Assembly: GCA_944388215.1 (NCBI GenBank)
Contig: CALXHT010000002.1
Location: 62,001 to 126,000 of the forward strand
Reading direction: 5' to 3'
Source: an uncultured Gemmiger sp.
Lineage (GTDB): Bacteria; Bacillota; Clostridia; Oscillospirales; Ruminococcaceae
Length of the DNA stretch: 64,000 bases
The notes beneath the pieces were generated by a model that made no database searches, was not told where the DNA came from, and saw only the letters and a list, made by a program, of their open reading frames with translations. Both the position numbers and the translations under genes were made by a program. Positions 1,466 through 12,562 of this stretch are shown piece after piece. How positions within the stretch are numbered: position 1 is the stretch's first letter; the number at the start of each line of letters is the position of its first letter.

Positions 1466-2332
1466 ATGCGCATCAAGAAGGTCATCAACAACAACATCCT
1501 CTGTGTGATCGACGAAAAAGGCAACGAGATGATCGTCACCGGCAAGGGGCTGGGGTTTGGCCGCAAGGTGGCGCAGTTCGTGGACCCCGCGGCGGTGGAA
1601 AAGGTCTACCGCATGGAGGACCGCACCGGGCAGCGGCGGCTGCGGGAGCTGGTGGAGCAGATCCCCATCGAGCATCTCGAACTGACCGAGGCGATGATCG
1701 CCGAGATCCGGGCGACCATCCATCAGCCCCTCAACGAAAGCCTGCTCATCACGCTGGCGGACCACATCAGCTTTGCCATCCAGCGCAAGGAACAGGGCAT
1801 CGAGTTCCAGAACCCGCTGGCGGGCAGCGTTCTCTGTTACTATCCCACCGAGTACCAGCTGGGCCAGCGGTGTCTGGCCATGGTGAAGGAGCGGTGCGGG
1901 GTGGAGCTGAACGGCGACGAGGCGTCCTTCATTGCGCTGCACATCGTCAACGCCGAGCTCAACACCGACATGAGCGAGATGTACGACATCACCCGCCTCA
2001 TCGAGGGGGTCATCCAGGTGGTGGAATACTACTACCGGGACCTGGGCGCCTTCGACCGGGAATCCCTGGCCTTCCACCGGTTTGTGGTGCATCTGCGCTA
2101 CTTTGCCCAGCGGCTCTTCCAGGGCAGGCTGATGACCGACTCCCCCGACGAGAGCGACACGGCCTTCCGGGCACTCATCGCCCGCAGCTGCAAGGAGCAT
2201 TATAAATGCGCCCGGTGCGTGGCCGACTATATCGAAAAGACCTGGCACCAGACCCTCTCCCAGGAGGAGCTGATCTACCTGACCATCCACCTCAAGCGGG
2301 TGGCGGGGGACCTGCAGGAAGTGGATTCCTGA
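1466..2332 (+). CDS. BglG/LicT/GlcT-family transcription antiterminator
   Basis: 288 aa, the usual length of the family. Residues 1-55 are the CAT RNA-binding domain (MRIKKVINNNILCVIDEKG). PRD1 follows with His100 and His159 at the phosphorylation positions, then PRD2 with His209 and His275. These proteins bind RAT hairpins in nascent mRNA and stop termination when their PTS permease is active. The downstream gene is a PTS EIICBA with its own RAT, which is the likely target. A RAT also precedes this gene, so it probably controls itself. LicT-like and GlcT-like assignments cannot be separated by eye, so no gene symbol is given. Confidence 0.92.
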   Translation: MRIKKVINNNILCVIDEKGNEMIVTGKGLGFGRKVAQFVDPAAVEKVYRMEDRTGQRRLRELVEQIPIEHLELTEAMIAEIRATIHQPLNESLLITLADHISFAIQRKEQGIEFQNPLAGSVLCYYPTEYQLGQRCLAMVKERCGVELNGDEASFIALHIVNAELNTDMSEMYDITRLIEGVIQVVEYYYRDLGAFDRESLAFHRFVVHLRYFAQRLFQGRLMTDSPDESDTAFRALIARSCKEHYKCARCVADYIEKTWHQTLSQEELIYLTIHLKRVAGDLQEVDS

Positions 2333-2351
2333 TCCACAACTGAATTTACGA

Positions 2352-2387
2352 GGATAGTGACTGCACCTTCGCTGTGTAGGCTAGACC
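2352..2387 (+). promoter_or_regulatory. Second RAT, before the PTS EIICBA gene
   Basis: It begins GGATAGTGACTG and ends TAGGCTAGACC. The first and last parts match the RAT before the antiterminator gene (GGAT.GT.AC.G and GGCTAGACC). Its 3' end AGACC is also the left arm of the terminator below, so the two structures exclude each other. Confidence 0.8.
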
Positions 2388-2437
2388 TGTATGGCTTTCC
2401 CGCCGTCCCGTGGGGGAGCTGTGCGGGTCTGTTTTTA
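2383..2437 (+). terminator. RAT-controlled terminator before the PTS gene
   Basis: AGACCTG (2383-2389) pairs with CGGGTCT (2424-2430). Inside it GCTTTCCC pairs with GGGGGAGC. A T-run follows at 2431-2436. Confidence 0.85.
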
Positions 2438-2485
2438 TAGAAAGGAAAAGTCCCATACTTTTCACAAGAAATAGGAGGAACCTGT

Positions 2486-4612
2486 ATGAAAGACAAAATC
2501 TTCGGCGTGCTGCAGCGTGTGGGCCGCTCCTTCATGTTGCCCATCGCCCTGCTGCCGGTGGCCGGTCTGCTGCTGGGCATCGGCAGCTCCTTCACCAACG
2601 AGACGATGCTCCAGGCCTACGGCCTCACCGGCATCATCCACCAGGGCACCGCCCTCTACACCGTGCTGGACATCATGAACCAGTGCGGCAGCGCGGTCTT
2701 CAACAACCTGGCCCTGCTCTTCGCCATGGGCGTGGCCATCGGCATGGCCAAAAAGGAGAAGGAAGTGGCCGCCCTTTCCGGTGCCATCGCCTACCTGGTC
2801 ATGAACACCGCCATCTCCGCCATGATCAACGCCGCCGGCGGCGTGGAGGCCATGGCCGCCAACACCACCACCTCCATGCTGGGCATCACCACCCTGCAGA
2901 TGGGCGTCTTCGGCGGCATCATCGTGGGTCTCGGCGTGGCGGCCCTCCACAACCGCTTCTATAAGACCCAGCTGCCCCAGGTGCTCTCCTTCTTCGGCGG
3001 CACCCGCTTCGTGCCCATCGTCTGTACCGCCGTCTATCTGGTGGTGGGCATCGCCATGTTCTACGTCTGGCCCATCGTCCAGGCCGGCATCTCCATGCTG
3101 GGCAACCTGGTGCTGGTTTCCGGCTACGCCGGCACCTGGCTCTACGGCCTCATCGAGCGCGCCCTCATTCCCTTCGGCCTGCACCACGTCTTCTACATCC
3201 CCTTCTGGCAGACCAGCGTGGGCGGCACCGCCGTCATCGACGGCGTCACCGTCCAGGGCGCCCAGAACATCTTCTTCGCCGAACTGGCCTCCAAGAACAC
3301 GGTGGAATTCTCGGTGTCCGCCACCCGGTTCATGTCCGGTAAGTTCCCCCTCATGATCTTCGGCCTGCCCGGCGCCGCCCTGGCCATGTACCGCGCCGCC
3401 CGCCCCGAAAAGCGCAAGGTGGTGGCCGGTCTGCTGCTCTCCGCCGCGCTGACCTCCATGCTCACCGGCATCACCGAACCCCTGGAGTTCACCTTCCTGT
3501 TTGTGGCCCCCGTCATGTACGCCGTCCACTGCGTCTACGCCGGTCTGGCCTATATGCTCATGCACATCTTCAATGTGGGCGTGGGCATGACCTTCTCGGG
3601 CGGCCTCATCGACCTGACCCTCTTCGGCATCCTCCAGGGCGAGGCCAAGACCCACTGGATCTGGGTGGTCATTGTGGGTGTGGTCTACTTCGTGCTCTAC
3701 TACTTCACCTTCTACTTCATGATCACCAAGATGAACCTCATGACCCCCGGCCGGGAGGCGGGCGACGGCGAGGCCAAGCTCTACACCCGTGCCGACTTCA
3801 AGGAGAAGACCGGCGTGGGCCCCGATGCCGCCGGTGCCGCCAGCCATGACCAGGTGTCGGCGCTGATCCTCCAGGGCCTGGGCGGCAAGGCAAACCTCTC
3901 CGACGTGGACTGCTGCGCCACCCGTCTGCGGGTCACCGTGGTGGATTCCGGCAAGGTGAACGACGCCCTGCTGCGCCAGAGCGGTGCCTCCGGCGTCATC
4001 CACAAGGGCAACGGCATCCAGGTCATCTACGGACCCCAGGTGGCAGTGATCAAGTCCAACCTGGAAGACTATATGGACAGCCCCGCCTCCGACGCCCCCG
4101 TGGCGCCCGCGGCTCCGGCGGCCCGGGCCCCCAAGGCGGAAACCCCCAAGGAAACCGTCCCCGCCGAGACCTTCGGCGCCCACCTCACCGGCACGGTGGT
4201 GGCCATGGCCGACGTGCAGGATGAGGCCTTCGCCTCCGGCGTGCTGGGGGACGGCGTGGCCATCGAACCCGCCGAGGGCAAACTGCTGGCCCCGGCGGAC
4301 GCCACGGTGGACAACCTCTTTGACACCCACCATGCCATCGGCCTGGTGACCGAGGGCGGCGCCGAACTGCTGCTTCACATCGGCATCGACACCGTCAAGC
4401 TGAACGGCGAGCACTTCACCGCCCACGTGAAAAACGGCCAGAAGGTGAAGAAGGGCGACCTGCTCATCAGCTTCGACATCGACGCCATCAAGTCGGCGGG
4501 CTATATGGTCACCACCCCCATGATCGTCTGCAACACCGACCGCTATGCCGCCGTGAAGACGCTGGCTTCCGGCCAGGTCACGGCGGGCCAGGACCTGCTG
4601 CGGGTGGAATAA
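2486..4612 (+). CDS. PTS sugar transporter EIICBA (glucose / alpha-glucoside family)
   Basis: 708 aa three-domain permease. EIIC spans about residues 1-430 (multi-pass membrane domain, with GLHHVFYIPFWQ and the conserved GITEPLEF loop). EIIB spans about 450-535 with phosphorylation motif CCATRLRV; Cys477 is the likely acceptor. EIIA spans about 570-708 with HIGIDTVKL and His631. It imports a hexose or hexoside while phosphorylating it, taking phosphate from HPr. The GGTRFVPIV and CATRLRV spellings look more like the alpha-glucoside subgroup than classic PtsG, but the substrate is an inference. An AGGAGG ribosome site precedes the ATG. Expression is most likely switched by the upstream PRD antiterminator. 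Confidence 0.93.
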   Translation: MKDKIFGVLQRVGRSFMLPIALLPVAGLLLGIGSSFTNETMLQAYGLTGIIHQGTALYTVLDIMNQCGSAVFNNLALLFAMGVAIGMAKKEKEVAALSGAIAYLVMNTAISAMINAAGGVEAMAANTTTSMLGITTLQMGVFGGIIVGLGVAALHNRFYKTQLPQVLSFFGGTRFVPIVCTAVYLVVGIAMFYVWPIVQAGISMLGNLVLVSGYAGTWLYGLIERALIPFGLHHVFYIPFWQTSVGGTAVIDGVTVQGAQNIFFAELASKNTVEFSVSATRFMSGKFPLMIFGLPGAALAMYRAARPEKRKVVAGLLLSAALTSMLTGITEPLEFTFLFVAPVMYAVHCVYAGLAYMLMHIFNVGVGMTFSGGLIDLTLFGILQGEAKTHWIWVVIVGVVYFVLYYFTFYFMITKMNLMTPGREAGDGEAKLYTRADFKEKTGVGPDAAGAASHDQVSALILQGLGGKANLSDVDCCATRLRVTVVDSGKVNDALLRQSGASGVIHKGNGIQVIYGPQVAVIKSNLEDYMDSPASDAPVAPAAPAARAPKAETPKETVPAETFGAHLTGTVVAMADVQDEAFASGVLGDGVAIEPAEGKLLAPADATVDNLFDTHHAIGLVTEGGAELLLHIGIDTVKLNGEHFTAHVKNGQKVKKGDLLISFDIDAIKSAGYMVTTPMIVCNTDRYAAVKTLASGQVTAGQDLLRVE

Positions 4613-5534: not shown

Positions 5535-5561
5535 TTAGCACTCAATGCTTGACAGTGCTAA
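5535..5561 (+). promoter_or_regulatory. CIRCE operator (HrcA site)
   Basis: TTAGCACTC, nine bases, then CAGTGCTAA: the CIRCE inverted repeat with one mismatch (C for G at the first base of the right arm). It overlaps the -35 box of the Hsp20 promoter, so bound HrcA would block RNA polymerase. Confidence 0.9.
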
Positions 5562-5690: not shown

Positions 5691-6161
5691 ATGATGATGG
5701 TGCCTTATATGTTTCATGATGCTCTGCTGGACGATTGGTTCCAGAATGATTGGGATCGCGACTTTGACCGCATGATGGAAGCGGCTGATCCCCGCCGCGC
5801 TTTTGGCAAACGCAGCGCCAATGTGATGAAGACCGATGTGCGGGAGACCGAGAACGGCTATGATGTCTTTGTGGATCTGCCCGGCTTCAAGAAGGAAGAC
5901 GTGAAGCTGGATCTGCAGAACGGCTATCTGACCATCACGGCCAACCGCACCGCCGACCATGACGAGAAGGATGGCCAGGGCCATTACATCCGTCAGGAGC
6001 GGTACACCGGTTCCTGCGCCCGCAGCTTCTATGTGGGCGACGAGCTGAAGCCCGAGGACGTGAAGGCCAGCTTTGAGGACGGTATCCTGAAGCTGAACCT
6101 GCCCAAGGCGGAAGCCAAGAAACTGCCTGAGAAGCAGCCCACCCAGATCGAGATTCTGTAA
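5691..6161 (+). CDS. Small heat-shock protein, Hsp20 / alpha-crystallin family
   Basis: 156 aa, normal for the family. The N-terminus is rich in aromatic residues and Asp. The alpha-crystallin domain runs from about residue 42 to 145 (DVRETENGYDVFVDLPGFKK, then DGILKLNLPKA). A C-terminal tail follows. It is an ATP-independent cytoplasmic holdase that keeps unfolding proteins soluble. The ATG at 5691 follows a TTGGAGG ribosome site; a second ATG codon directly after it is possible. Transcription starts from a consensus promoter covered by CIRCE, so heat induction through HrcA is expected. It is a single-gene unit ended by a strong terminator. Confidence 0.95.
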   Translation: MMMVPYMFHDALLDDWFQNDWDRDFDRMMEAADPRRAFGKRSANVMKTDVRETENGYDVFVDLPGFKKEDVKLDLQNGYLTITANRTADHDEKDGQGHYIRQERYTGSCARSFYVGDELKPEDVKASFEDGILKLNLPKAEAKKLPEKQPTQIEIL

Positions 6162-6175
6162 TGGTACCTCCAAGA

Positions 6176-6209
6176 GGGGGGCCATCCCGCAGGGGATGGC
6201 CCCCTTTTT
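6176..6209 (+). terminator. Terminator of hsp20
   Basis: A 12-bp perfect stem (GGGGGCCATCCC against GGGATGGCCCCC) with a GCAG-type loop, then TTTTT. Confidence 0.95.
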
Positions 6210-6240
6210 GCTGTTTCAGGGGACTTTACAAAAATTTTCA

Positions 6241-6269
6241 TTGACATTTTTTTCGCAATATGATACGAT
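6241..6269 (+). promoter_or_regulatory. Strong promoter of the polyamine leader
   Basis: TTGACA (6241-6246), 17 bases, TACGAT (6264-6269), in an AT-rich patch unlike the surrounding DNA. The predicted start is near 6276, about 400 bases before the decarboxylase ATG. Confidence 0.8.
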
Positions 6270-6275
6270 ACCTTC

Positions 6276-6647
6276 GATTTTGAAAGACGAATCGTGCAGG
6301 AGTTTTTCAAAGCAATTTACCCAGGACCGCCCACCAGGGGCTAAGGCCATACGGACAGCCGGGTCCACTGCCGATCGGCAACTTGGGTTGCCTTATTGAT
6401 GGAGTTAAAAGCTCAAATTTTATAAGTTGGTTCCTTTGATAACCAGAAATTGCGTGTTCCGCACGCAGACTTGTGAAACGGTCAATAAGAGTAGTAAAAG
6501 TAGAATTGCTATATAGACTCTGGACACGATACGCCCGAAACATGCCGCTGCCCTTGCCCCCCGCTCTGCCCGGGGACGGGGCGCTTTGCGGCGAAAACGG
6601 TCGAAGACAGCGCAAGTCTGCACGAAAGTGCGGTCTTGCGTTTTTTT
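6276..6647 (+). ncRNA. Structured leader RNA of the polyamine operon, unrecognised class
   Basis: This 520-base stretch between genes holds no credible ORF but much potential RNA structure. GGACC/GGTCC closes a possible three-way junction that contains two small hairpins. A GGCAAC/GTTGCC hairpin and a GCGTG/CACGC hairpin follow. The 3' end is an intrinsic terminator at 6611-6647. GCAGACTTG at 6465-6473 is perfectly complementary to CAAGTCTGC at 6613-6621, the 5' arm of that terminator, so it could act as an antiterminator. I do not recognise a T-box, lysine, guanidine or other known riboswitch signature. A free-standing stable RNA such as 6S is an alternative. Confidence 0.55.
6611..6647 (+). 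terminator. Terminator/attenuator before the polyamine operon
   Basis: CGCAAG at 6611-6616 pairs with CTTGCG at 6635-6640, closing an inner GCAC/GTGC stem with a GAAA tetraloop, then seven T. It lies between the promoter at 6241 and the decarboxylase start. Confidence 0.93.
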
Positions 6648-6682
6648 GTTTTGCCAAAGGAGCCACGGGACGGAGGAAAACT

Positions 6683-8149
6683 ATGAACGGGAATCCCAAC
6701 CGCACCCGTCTGGACCAGCGCCGCGCGCCGATCCACGAGGCGCTGGAAAATTTCCGCCGTATGCGGGTGGTGCCCTTTGATGTGCCGGGCCACAAGCGCG
6801 GCCGGGGCAACCCCGAACTGACGGCCTTTCTGGGCCAGCAGTGCGTGGGGGTGGACGTGAACAGCATGAAACCGCTGGACAACCTCTGCCATCCGGTGTC
6901 GGTGATCCGGGAGGCCGAGGAGCTGGCCGCCGATGCCTTCGGCGCCGCCCACGCCTTTCTGATGGTGGGGGGCACCACCAGCTCGGTGCAGAGCATGGTG
7001 CTCACCGCCTGCAAGCGGGGGGACGAGATCATTCTGCCCCGCAACGTCCACCGCAGCGTGCTCAACGCCCTGGTGCTCTGCGGCGCCGTGCCGGTCTATG
7101 TGAACCCCGAGGTGGACCAGCGGCTGGGCATTTCCTTAGGCATGCGCCGGGAACAGGTGGCCAAGGCCATCGCCGAGCATCCCAACGCCGTGGCGGTGCT
7201 GGTGAATAACCCCACCTACTACGGAATATGCAGCGATCTGCGGGCCATCGTGCGGATGGCCCACGACGCCGGCATGCTCTGCCTGGCCGACGAAGCCCAC
7301 GGCACCCACTTCTATTTCGGCGGCGGACTGCCGGTCTCCGCCATGGCCGCCGGGGCCGATATGGCCGCCGTGTCGATGCACAAGAGCGGCGGCAGCCTGA
7401 CCCAGTCCAGCCTGCTGCTCTGTGGTCCCAAGGTCCACGCGGGCTATGTGCGGCAGATCATCAACCTGACCCAGACCACCTCGGGCAGCTACCTGCTCAT
7501 GTCCAGCCTGGATATTTCCCGGAGAAACCTGGCCCTGCGGGGGCGGCAGGTCTTCCACCAGGTGGCCGACATGGCGGAGTACGCCCGGGAGGAGATCAAC
7601 GCCATCGGCGGGTACTACGCCTTCGGCAAGGAGCTCTGCAACGGGGATTCGGTCTTTGACTTCGACACCACCAAGCTGAGCATCCATACCCGGGACATCG
7701 GTCTGGCGGGCATCGAGGTATACGACATCCTGCGGGACGAGTACGATATTCAGATCGAGTTCGGCGATATCGGCAACATCCTGGCCTATCTCTCCATGGG
7801 CGACCGGCCCCAGGAGCTGGAGCGGCTGGTGAGCGCCCTGGCGGAGATACGCCGCCGCTACCACACCGACGGCACGGGGCTGCTCAACCAGGAATACATC
7901 GACCCCGAGGTGGTGGCCAGCCCCCAGCAGGCCTTCTACGCCGACAAGATCAGCCTGCCTTTGCGGGAGACCGAGGGCAGGGTGTGCAGCGAGTTTGTCA
8001 TGTGTTATCCCCCGGGCATTCCCATTCTGGCGCCGGGGGAGCGCATCACCGGGGAGATCCTCGACTATATCGAATACGCCAAGGCCAAGGGCTGCAGCAT
8101 GACGGGGCCGGAAGACCCCGATATCCTGCGCCTCAACGTGCTGGCGTAA
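6683..8149 (+). CDS. speA: Orn/Lys/Arg decarboxylase, probably arginine decarboxylase
   Basis: 488 aa from the ATG at 6683, which follows a CGGAGG ribosome site; the frame is open further upstream, but that part lies in the leader RNA. It belongs to the fold-type I PLP enzymes: VPGHKRG near the N-terminus, DEAHGTH at about residue 205, and SMHKSGGSLTQ with Lys234 as the PLP lysine. The C-terminal decarboxylase domain ends in PPGIPILAPGE. The family acts on arginine, lysine or ornithine. The agmatinase two genes downstream argues for arginine to agmatine plus CO2. First gene of a tightly spaced polyamine operon; a leader attenuator precedes it. Confidence 0.93.
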   Translation: MNGNPNRTRLDQRRAPIHEALENFRRMRVVPFDVPGHKRGRGNPELTAFLGQQCVGVDVNSMKPLDNLCHPVSVIREAEELAADAFGAAHAFLMVGGTTSSVQSMVLTACKRGDEIILPRNVHRSVLNALVLCGAVPVYVNPEVDQRLGISLGMRREQVAKAIAEHPNAVAVLVNNPTYYGICSDLRAIVRMAHDAGMLCLADEAHGTHFYFGGGLPVSAMAAGADMAAVSMHKSGGSLTQSSLLLCGPKVHAGYVRQIINLTQTTSGSYLLMSSLDISRRNLALRGRQVFHQVADMAEYAREEINAIGGYYAFGKELCNGDSVFDFDTTKLSIHTRDIGLAGIEVYDILRDEYDIQIEFGDIGNILAYLSMGDRPQELERLVSALAEIRRRYHTDGTGLLNQEYIDPEVVASPQQAFYADKISLPLRETEGRVCSEFVMCYPPGIPILAPGERITGEILDYIEYAKAKGCSMTGPEDPDILRLNVLA

Positions 8150-8165: not shown

Positions 8166-9023
8166 ATGGAAATGTGGTTTTCGGAATTTCACACCCCCGA
8201 TGTGAAGCACAGCATCCGGGTGAACCGGCAGCTCTACTCCAAGCAGAGCGACTACCAGCGCATCGACATTTTCGAGACGCCGGAGTTCGGCCGGGTGCTG
8301 ACGCTGGACGGCAACGTCATGCTCACCGAGCGGGACGAGTTCATCTACGACGAGATGATCACCCATGTGCCCATGTCGGTGCACCGGCAGGCCAAGGACA
8401 TTCTGGTCATCGGCGCCGGGGACGGCGGCGTGGTGCGGGAGCTGACCCGGTACGACCGGGTGGAGCGCATCGACCTCGTAGAGATGGACCCCATGGTGGT
8501 GGAGGCCTGCCGGGCGTACCTGCCGGGCAACGCCTGCCGGATGGATGACCGCCGGGTGCACATCTACTTTGAGAACGCCCTCAAGTTCATCCGCCGCTGC
8601 GAGGAGGAGTACGACCTCATCATCGTGGATTCCTCCGACCCCTTCGGCCCGTCGGAGGGACTGTTCACCCGGGAATTCTACGGCAACTGCTTCAACGCCC
8701 TGAAATCCGACGGCATCATGGTGAACCAGCAGGGCAGTCCCTTCTACGCCGAGGACGCCAGCGCCATGCAGCGCAGCCATAAGCGGATCGCCAGCACCTT
8801 CCCCATCAGCAAGGTGTACCAGGCCCACATCCCCACCTTTGCGGCGGGGTACTGGCTGTTCGGCTTTGCCAGCAAAAAGTATCATCCCATCGATGACCTG
8901 GACGCTGCCGCCTGGAACGCGCTGAACATGCGCACCCGCTATTACACCACCCGGCTGCATGTCGGGGCATTCTATCTGCCGGCATTTCTCGAGGAGATGC
9001 TGCTGGAAGTGGAGGACCGCTGA
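8166..9023 (+). CDS. speE: Spermidine synthase family protein
   Basis: 285 aa, typical. The SAM-type binding motif GAGDGGVVREL lies at about residues 79-89. The catalytic loop DSSDPFGPSEGLF lies near residue 156. The N-terminal beta-barrel (LYSKQSDYQRIDIFET) is present. SpeE moves aminopropyl from decarboxylated SAM to putrescine. No SAM decarboxylase (speD) is present in the window, while the operon also encodes the carboxyspermidine route, so the true substrate needs care. It starts 16 bases after speA. Its stop codon overlaps the speB start (TGATG), which suggests coupled translation. Confidence 0.93.
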   Translation: MEMWFSEFHTPDVKHSIRVNRQLYSKQSDYQRIDIFETPEFGRVLTLDGNVMLTERDEFIYDEMITHVPMSVHRQAKDILVIGAGDGGVVRELTRYDRVERIDLVEMDPMVVEACRAYLPGNACRMDDRRVHIYFENALKFIRRCEEEYDLIIVDSSDPFGPSEGLFTREFYGNCFNALKSDGIMVNQQGSPFYAEDASAMQRSHKRIASTFPISKVYQAHIPTFAAGYWLFGFASKKYHPIDDLDAAAWNALNMRTRYYTTRLHVGAFYLPAFLEEMLLEVEDR

Positions 9024-9895
9024 TGCTGCCACGCAATGTTGAAACCTTTATCGGGTGCGACAGCGCCTACCGCAGCGCCGAGATCGTGCTGTACGGCGCC
9101 CCCTACGATTCCACCACCAGCTACCGGCCGGGGGCCCGGTTCGGCCCGGCGGCCATCCGGCATGAGAGCTACGGCATCGAGACCTACAGTCCCTACCAGA
9201 ACACCGACCTGACCGACTGCGAGATCTTTGACAGCGGCGACCTGGAACTCTGCTTCGGCAGCAGCGAGAGCGCCCTCATCGACATTGAATCCCGGGCGGC
9301 GGAGATCCTGCGGGACGGCAAGCTGCCGCTGCTGCTGGGCGGCGAGCACCTGGTCACGCTGGGGGCGGTGCGGGCGGTGGCGGCGCGGTATCCCGAGCTG
9401 CACATCGTCCACTTTGACGCCCACGCCGATTTGCGGGACGATTATCTCGGAGCCAAGCTCAGCCACGCCTGCGTGCTGCGCCGCTGCCACGACCTGCTGG
9501 GGGATGGCCGCATCCACCAGTTCTGCATCCGCAGCGGCGACCGGGAGGAGTTCGAGTTTGCCGCCCGCCACACCGATCTGCGCCGGTTCGATTTCACCGG
9601 GCTGGGGGAACTGACCCAGTGGCTCTGCGACACCAGAGTGCCGGTCTACCTGACCATTGATCTGGACTGCCTGGACCCGTCGGCTTTCCCCGGCACCGGC
9701 ACGCCGGAGGCGGGGGGCGTCAGCTTTTTGCAGCTGCTGGACGCCATCCGCACCGTGACCCGGGCCAACATCGTGGGGGCGGACCTCAACGAACTGGCCC
9801 CCACGCTGGACACCAGCGGTATCTCCACCGCCACCGCCTGCAAGACATTGCGGGAGCTGCTGCTGGCGCTGGTGCATAACCGGGCTAAGGTATAA
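9023..9895 (+). CDS. speB: Agmatinase (ureohydrolase family)
   Basis: 290 aa. The binuclear manganese ligand motifs are all present: GGEHLVTLG at about residue 109, HFDAHADLRDD at about 133, SHA, and DLDCLDPSAFPG at about 211. The enzyme splits agmatine to putrescine and urea in the cytoplasm. It follows speA and speE and overlaps the latter by one base. Guanidinobutyrase or another ureohydrolase is possible in principle, but the arginine decarboxylase context supports agmatinase. Confidence 0.93.
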   Translation: MLPRNVETFIGCDSAYRSAEIVLYGAPYDSTTSYRPGARFGPAAIRHESYGIETYSPYQNTDLTDCEIFDSGDLELCFGSSESALIDIESRAAEILRDGKLPLLLGGEHLVTLGAVRAVAARYPELHIVHFDAHADLRDDYLGAKLSHACVLRRCHDLLGDGRIHQFCIRSGDREEFEFAARHTDLRRFDFTGLGELTQWLCDTRVPVYLTIDLDCLDPSAFPGTGTPEAGGVSFLQLLDAIRTVTRANIVGADLNELAPTLDTSGISTATACKTLRELLLALVHNRAKV

Positions 9896-10094: not shown

Positions 10095-11354
10095 ATGAGC
10101 AAAGTTCTTGTCATCGGCTGCGGCGGCGTTGCCAGCGTTGCCATCCAGAAATGCTGCCAGGTCAGCGACGTTTTCACCGAGCTGTGCATCGCCAGCCGCA
10201 CCAAGTCCAAGTGCGACGCCCTGGCCGAAAAACTGGCCCCCATCACCAAAACCAAGATCACCACCGCCCGGGTGGACGCCGACGATGTCAACCAGCTGAT
10301 CGCCCTCATCAAGAGCTATGGCCCGGACCTCGTCATGAACATCGCCCTGCCCTACCAGGACCTGACCATCATGGACGCCTGCCTTGCCTGCGGCGTCAAC
10401 TATATGGATACCGCCAACTATGAGCCGGAAAACACCGACGACCCCGAATGGCGCGCCATCTACGAGAAGCGCTGCAAGGAAGCGGGCTTCTCGGCCTACT
10501 TCGACTACTCCTGGCAGTGGGCCTACAAGAAAAAGTTCGAGGACGCCGGCCTCACCGCCCTGCTGGGCTGCGGCTTTGACCCGGGCGTGACCCAGGCTTA
10601 CTGCGCCTACGCCGCCAAGCACGAGTTCGACACCATCGACACCATCGATATCCTGGACTGCAACGGCGGCGACCACGGCTATGCCTTCGCCACCAACTTC
10701 AACCCCGAGATCAACCTGCGGGAGGTCAGCGCCCCCGGCAGCTACTGGGAGGACGGCCACTGGGTGGAAGTGCCTGCCATGAGCATCAAGCGGGAATACA
10801 ACTTCGACCAGGTGGGCGATAAGGACATGTACCTGCTCCACCACGAGGAGATCGAATCCCTGGGCAAGAACTTCCCGGGCGTCAAGCGCATCCGGTTCTT
10901 CATGACCTTCGGCCAGAGCTACCTGGACCACATGCGCTGCCTGGAGGACGTGGGCATGCTCTCCACCACGCCGATCAACTACAACGGCCAGGAGATCGTC
11001 CCCATCCAGTTCCTCAAAGCCCTGCTGCCCGACCCGGCCAGCCTGGGCCCCCGCACCAAGGGCAAGACCAACATCGGCTGCATCTTCACCGGCACCAAGG
11101 ACGGCAAACCCAAGACCTACTACATCTATAACGTCTGCGACCACCAGGAATGCTACAAGGAAGTGGGCAGCCAGGCCATCAGCTACACCACCGGTGTACC
11201 GGCCATGTGCGGCGCCCTGATGATGCTCACCGGCCAGTGGACCAAGCCCGGCGTTTACACCGTGGAGGAGTTCAACCCCGACCCGTTCCTGGACGCTCTG
11301 GACAAATACGGCCTGCCCCGCAGCGAAAACCGCGCCCCGGCGCTGGTGGACTGA
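10095..11354 (+). CDS. Saccharopine dehydrogenase-like carboxy(nor)spermidine synthase
   Basis: 419 aa. The N-terminal Rossmann fold begins VLVIGCGGVASVAIQKC. The body has the saccharopine-dehydrogenase layout (YMDTANYEP, then LLGCGFDPGVTQAYCAY). In gut bacteria this family joins putrescine with L-aspartate semialdehyde to give carboxyspermidine using NADPH. The next gene is the matching decarboxylase and overlaps by one base (TGATG), so this role is well supported over lysine metabolism. An AAGGAG ribosome site precedes the ATG. The 200-base gap to speB holds one repeat copy and a palindrome but no obvious terminator, so co-transcription is possible. Confidence 0.9.
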   Translation: MSKVLVIGCGGVASVAIQKCCQVSDVFTELCIASRTKSKCDALAEKLAPITKTKITTARVDADDVNQLIALIKSYGPDLVMNIALPYQDLTIMDACLACGVNYMDTANYEPENTDDPEWRAIYEKRCKEAGFSAYFDYSWQWAYKKKFEDAGLTALLGCGFDPGVTQAYCAYAAKHEFDTIDTIDILDCNGGDHGYAFATNFNPEINLREVSAPGSYWEDGHWVEVPAMSIKREYNFDQVGDKDMYLLHHEEIESLGKNFPGVKRIRFFMTFGQSYLDHMRCLEDVGMLSTTPINYNGQEIVPIQFLKALLPDPASLGPRTKGKTNIGCIFTGTKDGKPKTYYIYNVCDHQECYKEVGSQAISYTTGVPAMCGALMMLTGQWTKPGVYTVEEFNPDPFLDALDKYGLPRSENRAPALVD

Positions 11355-12562
11355 TGCCCGCCGCCGATACCCGCGCCCCTTTTGCAGCCCTGGGCGGGGT
11401 GGTGCCCGCGGAATTCGCCGCGCTGCCCACCCCCTGCTACCTGCTGGACGAGGGGGCGCTGGCCCGCAACGGCAAGATCCTGGGCGAGCTGGCCGCCCGC
11501 ACCGGCTGCAAGGTGCTGCTGGCCCAAAAGGCCTTCAGCAACTACGACCTCTACCCGGTGCTGGCGCCCTGTCTCGCGGGCACCGAGGCCAGCGGCCTGT
11601 TTGAAGCGCGTCTCGGCGCCGAGGAGATGCCCGGGAAGGAGGTCCACGTCTTCTGCGCGGCCTACCGGGAGGACGAGATGGCGGAACTGCTGCGGTGGGC
11701 CGACCACATCGTCTTCAACTCCCCGGCCCAGCTGGCAAAATTCGGCCCCATGGCAAAAGCCGCGGGCAAAAGCGTGGGGCTGCGGGTGAACCCGGAATGC
11801 TCCACCCAGGAGGGCCACGCCATCTATGACCCCTGCGCCCCCGGCAGCCGTCTGGGCACCACCCGGGCCCAGTGGGACGCCGCGGTGGCCCAAAATCCCA
11901 CCCTGCCGGACCTGCTGGACGGGCTGCACTTCCATACCCTCTGCGAGCAGGATTCCGACGCCCTGGCGGTGACGCTGGACGCGGTGGCCGACAAATTCGG
12001 CGATTTGCTGCCCCGCATGAAATGGCTCAACATGGGCGGCGGGCACCACATCACCCGGCCGGGGTATGACCTGGCCACGCTGGAAGCCTGCATCGCCCGG
12101 GCCCAGGGCGACTGGGGCGTGACGGTCTATCTCGAACCGGGGGAGGCCTGCGCCCTCAACGCCGGGTATTTCCTCACCCGGGTGCTGGACGTGGTGCAGA
12201 ACGGCGATACCACGGTGGCGATTCTCGACGCCAGCGCCGCCTGCCATACGCCGGATGTCATCGAGATGCCCTACCGCCCGCCGCTGCTCTTTGCCGCCGA
12301 CCCGGGGGAAAAGCCCTGCACCGTGCGGCTGGCCGGCCCCACCTGCCTGGCGGGGGATGTCTTCGGGGACTACAGCTTCGACGCAGTGCCCCAGCCTGGC
12401 GACCTGCTGGTCTTCGGGGATATGGCCATCTACACCACCTGCAAGAACAACACCTTCAACGGCATGCCGCTGCCCGCCATATGGGTGCGCGGCGCCGACG
12501 GCGCCTGCCGGGCGCTGGTGCAGTTCGGCTACCGGGACTTCAAAGTCCGCCTGGGCCGGTGA
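11354..12562 (+). CDS. nspC: Carboxy(nor)spermidine decarboxylase
   Basis: 402 aa from the ATG at 11354, which overlaps the stop of the preceding gene; the same frame is open earlier but inside that gene. It is a fold-type III (alanine-racemase-like) PLP enzyme. LPTPCYLLDEGAL opens the barrel, and VLLAQKAFSNYDLYP carries the PLP lysine (Lys57). LEPGEACALNAGY and GPTCLAGDVFGDY are typical of CANSDC. It removes CO2 from carboxyspermidine to give spermidine. Together with its neighbour it completes a spermidine route that needs no SAM decarboxylase. Confidence 0.93.
   Translation: MPAADTRAPFAALGGVVPAEFAALPTPCYLLDEGALARNGKILGELAARTGCKVLLAQKAFSNYDLYPVLAPCLAGTEASGLFEARLGAEEMPGKEVHVFCAAYREDEMAELLRWADHIVFNSPAQLAKFGPMAKAAGKSVGLRVNPECSTQEGHAIYDPCAPGSRLGTTRAQWDAAVAQNPTLPDLLDGLHFHTLCEQDSDALAVTLDAVADKFGDLLPRMKWLNMGGGHHITRPGYDLATLEACIARAQGDWGVTVYLEPGEACALNAGYFLTRVLDVVQNGDTTVAILDASAACHTPDVIEMPYRPPLLFAADPGEKPCTVRLAGPTCLAGDVFGDYSFDAVPQPGDLLVFGDMAIYTTCKNNTFNGMPLPAIWVRGADGACRALVQFGYRDFKVRLGR

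Follow-up and report, generated by a model that had tools for sequence, protein, structure and literature searches.

A conserved two-domain leader RNA of polyamine operons in the Bacillota, a probable transcription-terminating polyamine riboswitch

The polyamine operon of an uncultured Gemmiger sp. is headed by a conserved leader RNA, which with a probability of roughly two in three represents a transcription-terminating riboswitch for a polyamine, most likely spermidine, repressing polyamine synthesis and elsewhere uptake. The RNA was analysed in a stretch of 64,000 nt (hereafter the window; GenBank assembly GCA_944388215.1, contig CALXHT010000002.1, positions 62,001-126,000, forward strand), in which it occupies positions 6277-6647, carries an intrinsic terminator at its 3' end and is followed by speA-speE-speB-CANSDH-nspC. 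It consists of two conserved domains with defined helices, is associated with polyamine genes, and contains, besides the terminator, a mutually exclusive pairing which covaries. A transcription-attenuating leader of a polyamine operon had been proposed in the original prediction, and conservation, gene association and the covariation of antiterminator and terminator lend this proposal strong support. Thus the leader very probably acts in cis as an attenuator of polyamine genes, and probably does so as a small-molecule riboswitch.

Polyamines bind RNA everywhere, and their specific sensing by RNA has long been an open question. No account of the leader as a cis-regulatory RNA was found in the openly licensed literature, a search in which a subscription paper could be missed, and a term search of Stav 2019 (PMC6429828) gave no match. 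For experimental work, both the construct and the switch strand are defined, and the ligands are ranked.

The leader and its operon

A sigma-70-type promoter (TTGACA-N17-TACGAT, plus strand, 6241-6269) with 10 of 12 consensus matches precedes the leader, and transcription is expected to start near position 6276. Between 6150 and 6750 two promoter-like sites were counted compared to a mean of 0.4 in shuffles, and such sites are situated upstream of 55 of the 84 full-length loci (shuffled rate 0.20). The fold of the leader (6277-6645) reaches -136 kcal/mol with a z-score of -4.71, a stability matched by none of 100 shuffles. The intrinsic terminator on the plus strand comprises a hairpin at 6610-6641 (-21.4 kcal/mol) and a U tract extending to 6647, and the start codon ATG of the decarboxylase gene follows 35 nt downstream at 6683. 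Promoter and terminator ahead of the decarboxylase gene are hence in place as originally described; the terminated product would have a length of approximately 365 nt.

The first regulated gene (6683-8149, plus strand like all genes of the operon) encodes an Orn/Lys/Arg decarboxylase of the speA/ldcC type, assigned by PF01276 with NCBIfam below cut-off. Next to it are located speE, encoding spermidine synthase (8166-9023), and speB, encoding agmatinase (9023-9895), both assigned by NCBIfam, followed by genes for carboxynorspermidine synthase/dehydrogenase (CANSDH, 10095-11354) and carboxynorspermidine decarboxylase (nspC, 11354-12562), with NCBIfam matches below and just under the curated cut-off, respectively. 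Judged from these assignments, the operon looks like a complete spermidine pathway.

Two further elements of the window may be mentioned. The sequence TTAGCACTC-N9-CAGTGCTAA at 5535-5561 is situated upstream of an Hsp20-family gene (5691-6161) and deviates in one base from the HrcA/CIRCE operator consensus. At 1466-4612, a gene resembling those of BglG-type antiterminators lies ahead of a presumed PTS transporter gene, a pair that would represent antitermination control of another kind.

Distribution, gene neighbourhood, and structure

Rfam family RF02440 (SpF59_sRNA, "ldcC RNA") matches positions 6324-6374 with 65.7 bits (gathering cut-off 37.2) over model positions 1-54, i.e., the whole 54-nt model. 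It is the sole Rfam family at gathering score anywhere in the window and covers only the RNA's 5' quarter. Scanning 6360-6660, which includes the 3' domain, against Rfam at E-values up to 10 gave nothing credible, nor did permissive scans of the leader for other families. The original prediction recognised no known RNA class in the leader. This holds for the remaining three quarters, which are without an Rfam family, and the reading of the leader as free of T-box, lysine, and guanidine elements stands as well, but the RF02440 match and the extent of conservation had been overlooked.

Conservation continues for approximately 150 nt beyond the RF02440 segment (6371-6522) and was observed across the Bacillota. 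A 23-base pattern from the 3' part occurs at at least 119 further loci of a named genome collection, each of which matches a full-length profile of the RNA, in some cases over part of its length only. Organism-naming titles among the matches listed (80) are presumably all those of Bacillota, some titles giving only "bacterium"; Faecalibacterium, Acidaminococcus, Phascolarctobacterium, Acetobacterium, Paenibacillus, Neobacillus, and Lachnotalea are among the matches listed. R1, a covariance model built on the 3' domain, scores 147.5 bits in the window's own genome and has matches in 25 of 398 phylum genomes, 52 of 197 order genomes, and 28 of 100 family genomes, with one match per genome in every matching genome listed. 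All 18 of the 398 phylum genomes with RF02440, the window's own among them, are included in the 25, an overlap that is not independent because some of these loci had contributed to R1. L. lactis was the only RF02440-positive genome among 14 controls; in the genomes covered here the full-length RNA was seen neither in Streptococcus nor in Lactococcus, and the ten genomes of a further order, examined as a route to streptococci, added nothing.

Gene neighbourhood was surveyed at 137 loci (L001-L137, L001 being the window itself). In 51 loci speA comes first, in 37 CANSDH, in 35 speD, and in 6 potA, i.e., a gene of polyamine synthesis or uptake in 129 of 137. Seven of the remaining eight have at most 278 bases downstream, and one, L130, is located before an M28 peptidase gene. 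In the phylum sample all 25 RNA-bearing genomes have a polyamine gene downstream, as do 50 of the 52 in the order sample. The exceptions are L204 and L209, and in the latter speD is found at +2084 as the fourth reading frame behind three others. Of the 26 loci that were new in the family sample (L211-L236, with L235 repeating L210), 25 have polyamine genes, and L234 is without downstream DNA. In case of L126, family models confirmed PotA and PotD, and the two permeases were recognised by eye. At L130 and at L204 the place of the polyamine gene behind the RNA is taken by a gene for a secreted M28-type peptidase; the two peptidases are 44% identical over 698 aa. Locus L040 contains two tandem Clostridiales-1 RNAs (RF01699) at 3206-3379 and 3385-3555 of the minus strand, approximately 3 kb downstream.

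The 5' domain corresponds to the RF02440 segment (6324-6374, plus strand) and contains P1 (6324-6328/6362-6366), P2 (6329-6332/6338-6341), and P3 (6345-6347/6358-6360). P1 is the GGACC/GGTCC pairing that had been suggested to close a three-way junction, and its core GACC/GGUC is present in all 76 aligned relatives. P3 carries the CAUACGGACA loop and is followed by GCCGA; a pseudoknot between CGG of this loop and CCG of GCCGA is possible, both sides being nearly invariant. The 3' domain (6371-6522, plus strand), which has no Rfam match and is supported by alignment A1, covariation, and R1, comprises P4 (6377-6382/6387-6392), P5 (6393-6399/6482-6488), P6 (6402-6406/6410-6414), P7 (6422-6427/6469-6474), P8 (6429-6432/6441-6444), P9 (6451-6456/6462-6467), P10 (6489-6492/6517-6520), and P11 (6493-6497/6506-6510). 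RNAalifold on a MAFFT alignment of 55 loci recovered only part of the helices; the others were assigned by hand from conserved complementary blocks and subsequently tested for covariation.

For alignment A1, 10 of the 137 loci were dropped since their 3' domain was not delimitable at one end; a length and redundancy filter reduced the remaining 127 to 65, of which 9 were removed by hand as truncated, mis-delimited, or oddly long, leaving 56 sequences. Alignment A2 of the 5' domain contains 76 of 77 sequences (mis-delimited L074 was removed). Across the 40 pairs of the 56 aligned 3' domains, 93.6% of the cells pair. Changes on both sides occur in 16 of the 40 pairs compared to 7.8 in shuffles and in 78 cells compared to 20.7, and neither value was reached in any of 500 shuffles; with partners slid by 1-3 columns, pairing drops to 34-44% and the both-side cells to 15-41. 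Most of the covariation resides in P4, P6, P8, and P9, the last of which pairs in just 69.9% of the A1 cells. P1, P5, P7, and P10 are nearly invariant with little or no covariation, so that P5, P7, and P10 are backed by conservation only. In the 5' domain (76 sequences) 96.2% of the cells pair and P1 is invariant throughout; 117 cells, all in P2, show changes on both sides compared to 31.7 in shuffles (0 of 500 as high), and the number of pairs concerned, 5 and all of them in P2, does not exceed that of shuffles (4.8; 412 of 500 as high).

The two ends of the conserved region form a long-range closing helix on the plus strand, in which 6291-6305 pairs with 6515-6530 (AGACUCU..CACGAU) in the minimum free energy fold; in the fold of the antiterminator state, 6291-6305 sits in a 5' hairpin. 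Using the variable bases after GACUCU only, the own ends of 46 loci with the 5' domain pair with -11.9 kcal/mol compared to -9.0 kcal/mol for swapped ends, and none of 20,000 permutations was as good. A wider set of 82 loci, which includes loci without the 5' domain and from which 13 of the 137 were left out for want of usable ends, gives a weaker signal (own -16.2, swapped -13.0 kcal/mol, median rank 0.17), with a rank of at most 0.05 in 23 of 82 and pairing better than shuffles at 0.05 in 39 of 82. Covariation supports P2, P4, P6, P8, and the closing helix, and with them a leader domain of conserved structure.

Two observations concern the region of P10. GAGU occurs in the 5' segment (6299-6305 in the window, and relatives) of 22 of the 46 loci, approximately 5 being expected at equal base frequencies; it is able to base-pair with GACUCU, which is conserved, at the expense of P10, and possibly represents a second switch. 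In L021, L030, L037, L055, L080, L095, and L124, the core is kept up to CAAUAAGAGU and the usual P10/P11 end is missing.

The 5' domain is not a constant part of the RNA. Among 173 loci with at least 150 nt upstream, a profile found it in 139, and 34 scored below 10 bits. Rechecking these 34 revealed the whole domain in 2 and a piece of it, CGGACAG, in 5; the other 27 showed no trace of it, and hence it is missing altogether in at least 27 of the 173 loci. At about a dozen loci without it, inspected by eye, a 5' hairpin and AUGCAAAUA join P4 directly. Rfam was also scanned against 15 loci, including 12 selected for a 5' domain that looked changed or missing; RF02440 was found in none of these 12, and no other Rfam family matched on the RNA. 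Since 15 of the 24 terminator-scanned loci among the 27 have a terminator, the 3' domain is probably sufficient for switching; the optional 5' domain may provide a second binding site or tune affinity.

Terminator and switch strand

The switch strand GCAGACUUG (6465-6473, plus strand) belongs either to P9/P7 of the aptamer fold or to the antiterminator. As DNA (GCAGACTTG) it is reverse-complementary without mismatch to 6613-6621 (CAAGTCTGC) in the 5' arm of the terminator, in agreement with the 9-nt complementarity pointed out originally. Such a match is unlikely by chance: of 2000 dinucleotide-shuffled leaders, 17 contained a stretch of at least 9 nt perfectly complementary to the arm region. 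In the predicted aptamer fold the strand, ending with CUUGUG, pairs with AUAAGU (P7) and partly in P9.

A terminator hairpin of -9 kcal/mol or better was observed in 118 of 137 spacers compared to 90 of 274 spacers shuffled with their U tracts left unchanged. The other 19 loci have no terminator by this criterion, some for too little DNA, and were excluded from the antiterminator test; in case of L018 a terminator missed by the automated criterion is visible by eye. Across the 118 loci the switch strand pairs with its own arm with a mean of -13.6 kcal/mol, with arms of other loci with -10.9, and with shuffled arms with -6.1 kcal/mol. The own antiterminator beats shuffled arms at 0.05 in 96 of the 118 loci and fails to do so in 22. 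For 53 non-redundant loci (own -12.2, swapped -9.3 kcal/mol) none of 20,000 permutations was as good, and the same was found for 20,000 permutations within gene classes; for eight other 18-nt segments of these RNAs the values were no better than -3.4 to -7.0 kcal/mol. The permutations take loci as independent, so that relatedness inflates the result somewhat, an effect limited by the redundancy filter and the within-class test. The partners change together: GCAGACUUG/CAAGUCUGC in the window corresponds to GGCUUG/CAAGCC in L040 and L106 and to AUCAUCUU with AAGAUGAU in L095. The pairing between 6465 and 6613, whose lack of conservation would have spoken against a switch, is thus conserved and covarying in relatives.

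With these predicted mutually exclusive structures an expression platform is present, which suggests the following mechanism. The RNA would fold into an aptamer of approximately 200 nt, closed by pairing of its two ends. Held by the ligand, this fold would keep (GCAG)ACUUG in P9/P7, leaving the 5' arm of the terminator free, whereupon the terminator would form and the operon would be off. Without ligand, the same strand would pair with the arm at 6613-6621, and the resulting antiterminator would permit readthrough by the polymerase. Direct binding of the ligand and, on grounds of logic, the OFF direction are what we infer.

The weakest point of this mechanism is its energetics. With the transcript ending at 6622, where the 5' arm emerges, the antiterminator fold is predicted to lie 2.8 kcal/mol above the best fold, and with the complete terminator 13-16 kcal/mol above it. 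P7 has a predicted probability of 0.99 even without ligand, so termination would be the equilibrium default; consequently the switch needs kinetic control through the order of folding during transcription, or a modest ligand effect, or else the program misjudges the junction. The stability of P7 would also suit an attenuator run by an RNA-binding protein or another factor instead of a directly bound metabolite, and its switch between antiterminator and terminator would look alike. However, the usual protein-binding attenuator is smaller and less intricate than this RNA with its many helices and, in the 3' domain alone, 32 invariant columns, of which several are unpaired, and inspection by eye of the operon's frames revealed no regulator gene. 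We regard control by a protein or another such factor as unlikely.

Ligand, the pneumococcal RNA, and known systems

Returning to the riboswitch, a polyamine is a fairly probable ligand, and for spermidine specifically we see an even chance. Spermidine is the shared product of the decarboxylase, SpeD, carboxyspermidine, and uptake routes; being common to all of them, it is ranked above norspermidine and the latter above putrescine. The most informative loci are those starting with CANSDH (37 of 137): in all 20 of them with at least 3000 nt downstream, speA, speD, speE, and speB are absent within 4500 nt. Together with the 6 loci headed by potA, these CANSDH/nspC loci suggest that the end product shared by all is spermidine. 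From the ligands named originally, i.e., arginine, agmatine, or a polyamine, the last is therefore retained, and arginine or agmatine is less likely than spermidine. The same loci bear on a riboswitch for decarboxylated SAM, methylthioadenosine, agmatine, a cation, or pH. SAM-derived compounds are tied to speD and speE, and decarboxylases also act in acid defence, but neither the CANSDH nor the potA route uses decarboxylated SAM or agmatine, which makes a ligand of this kind quite improbable.

Rfam types RF02440 as "Gene; sRNA" and describes it as the Streptococcus sRNA SpF59 (ldcC RNA); the "ldcC" of this description suggests that the gene had already been noted by someone. In the parts of the sources considered here, the pneumococcal RNA F59, also srn235, SN20, or Spd_sr49, is located between SP0915 and SP0916 on the strand of SP0916 with a length of 82 nt in the table of Mann 2012 (PMC3395615), and at 869478-869804 with a length of 327 nt in a list of 2025, which matched it in 385 genomes of 385 strains surveyed (PMC12323649). 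The latter study set known cis-regulators aside and kept 58 sRNA candidates; the row of srn235 meets the criteria stated there, and the section on seven notable sRNAs does not include it (PMC12323649). From a leader terminated just before SP0916, a product of this size, 327 nt, would be expected. The fitness value of 0.05 in lung given for srn235 and SN20 (PMC3395615, accessible part) could, if the RNA is the operon leader, reflect polarity within the polyamine operon.

A free-standing, trans-acting small RNA, the reading in line with the Rfam type and with both published lengths, is very improbable for the leader as such: the RNA is situated upstream of and on the same strand as the polyamine genes in 129 of 137 loci, its antiterminator covaries, and the 327-nt RNA fits a terminated leader. 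It is possible that the terminated RNA also acts in trans as a second role. An RNA carried on pneumococcal sRNA candidate lists thereby becomes a probable leader of an operon. Ribosome-mediated attenuation through a leader or arrest peptide, known from other polyamine genes (speFL), finds a GTG frame from 6473 that stays open into speA, but conservation tracks base pairs and the loops of P2, P6, and P9 differ in length among relatives by non-multiples of three (by eye), so that no conserved peptide is indicated, the original statement that the leader lacks a credible ORF holds as far as seen, and this explanation is hardly tenable.

The cis-acting leader preferred here appears to be, as a kind, a transcription-terminating riboswitch-type leader whose structure is new apart from the RF02440 segment. 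With RF02440 it shares the fully matched 54-nt model at 6324-6374, whereas the model leaves out the 3' domain of approximately 150 nt, in which the switch strand is located, as well as the terminator and the polyamine regulon. T-box, lysine, guanidine, and SAM riboswitches have the same leader architecture of terminator and antiterminator. None of them reached the cut-off in the window or appeared in the permissive scans of the leader, RF00162 (SAM-I) having no match at E-values up to 5 in 6150-6750 either; as RF02440 is the only family at gathering score, T-box, lysine, guanidine, and SAM-I were rejected. The odc1 motif, compared by its description in the accessible part of Brewer et al. 2021 (PMC8632094), likewise is a conserved RNA before a polyamine decarboxylase gene. 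It is, however, an alpha-proteobacterial single hairpin with a pseudoknot, proposed to act at the level of translation by start-codon choice with a uORF, and no terminator switch is described in that part (PMC8632094).

Closest in function is the published spermidine riboswitch, the one accepted class of polyamine-sensing RNA encountered in the openly licensed literature and a rare one, a four-stem SAM-I variant with 13 representatives in the alignment of Salvail et al. 2023, which acts upstream of ldcC, speE, and speB and turns expression OFF by transcription termination (PMC10853860, accessible part). The present leader differs from the four-stem SAM-I fold in fold and sequence, and the authors of that study expect further classes of polyamine riboswitches (PMC10853860, same part). 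On balance we favour the view that the leader represents such a second class, unrelated in fold to the published one and far wider in its spread, in which a switch-bearing core of approximately 150 nt is combined with an optional 5' domain (SpF59) and closed by pairing of the ends, and which heads polyamine operons in many Bacillota, probably including the pneumococcal RNA.
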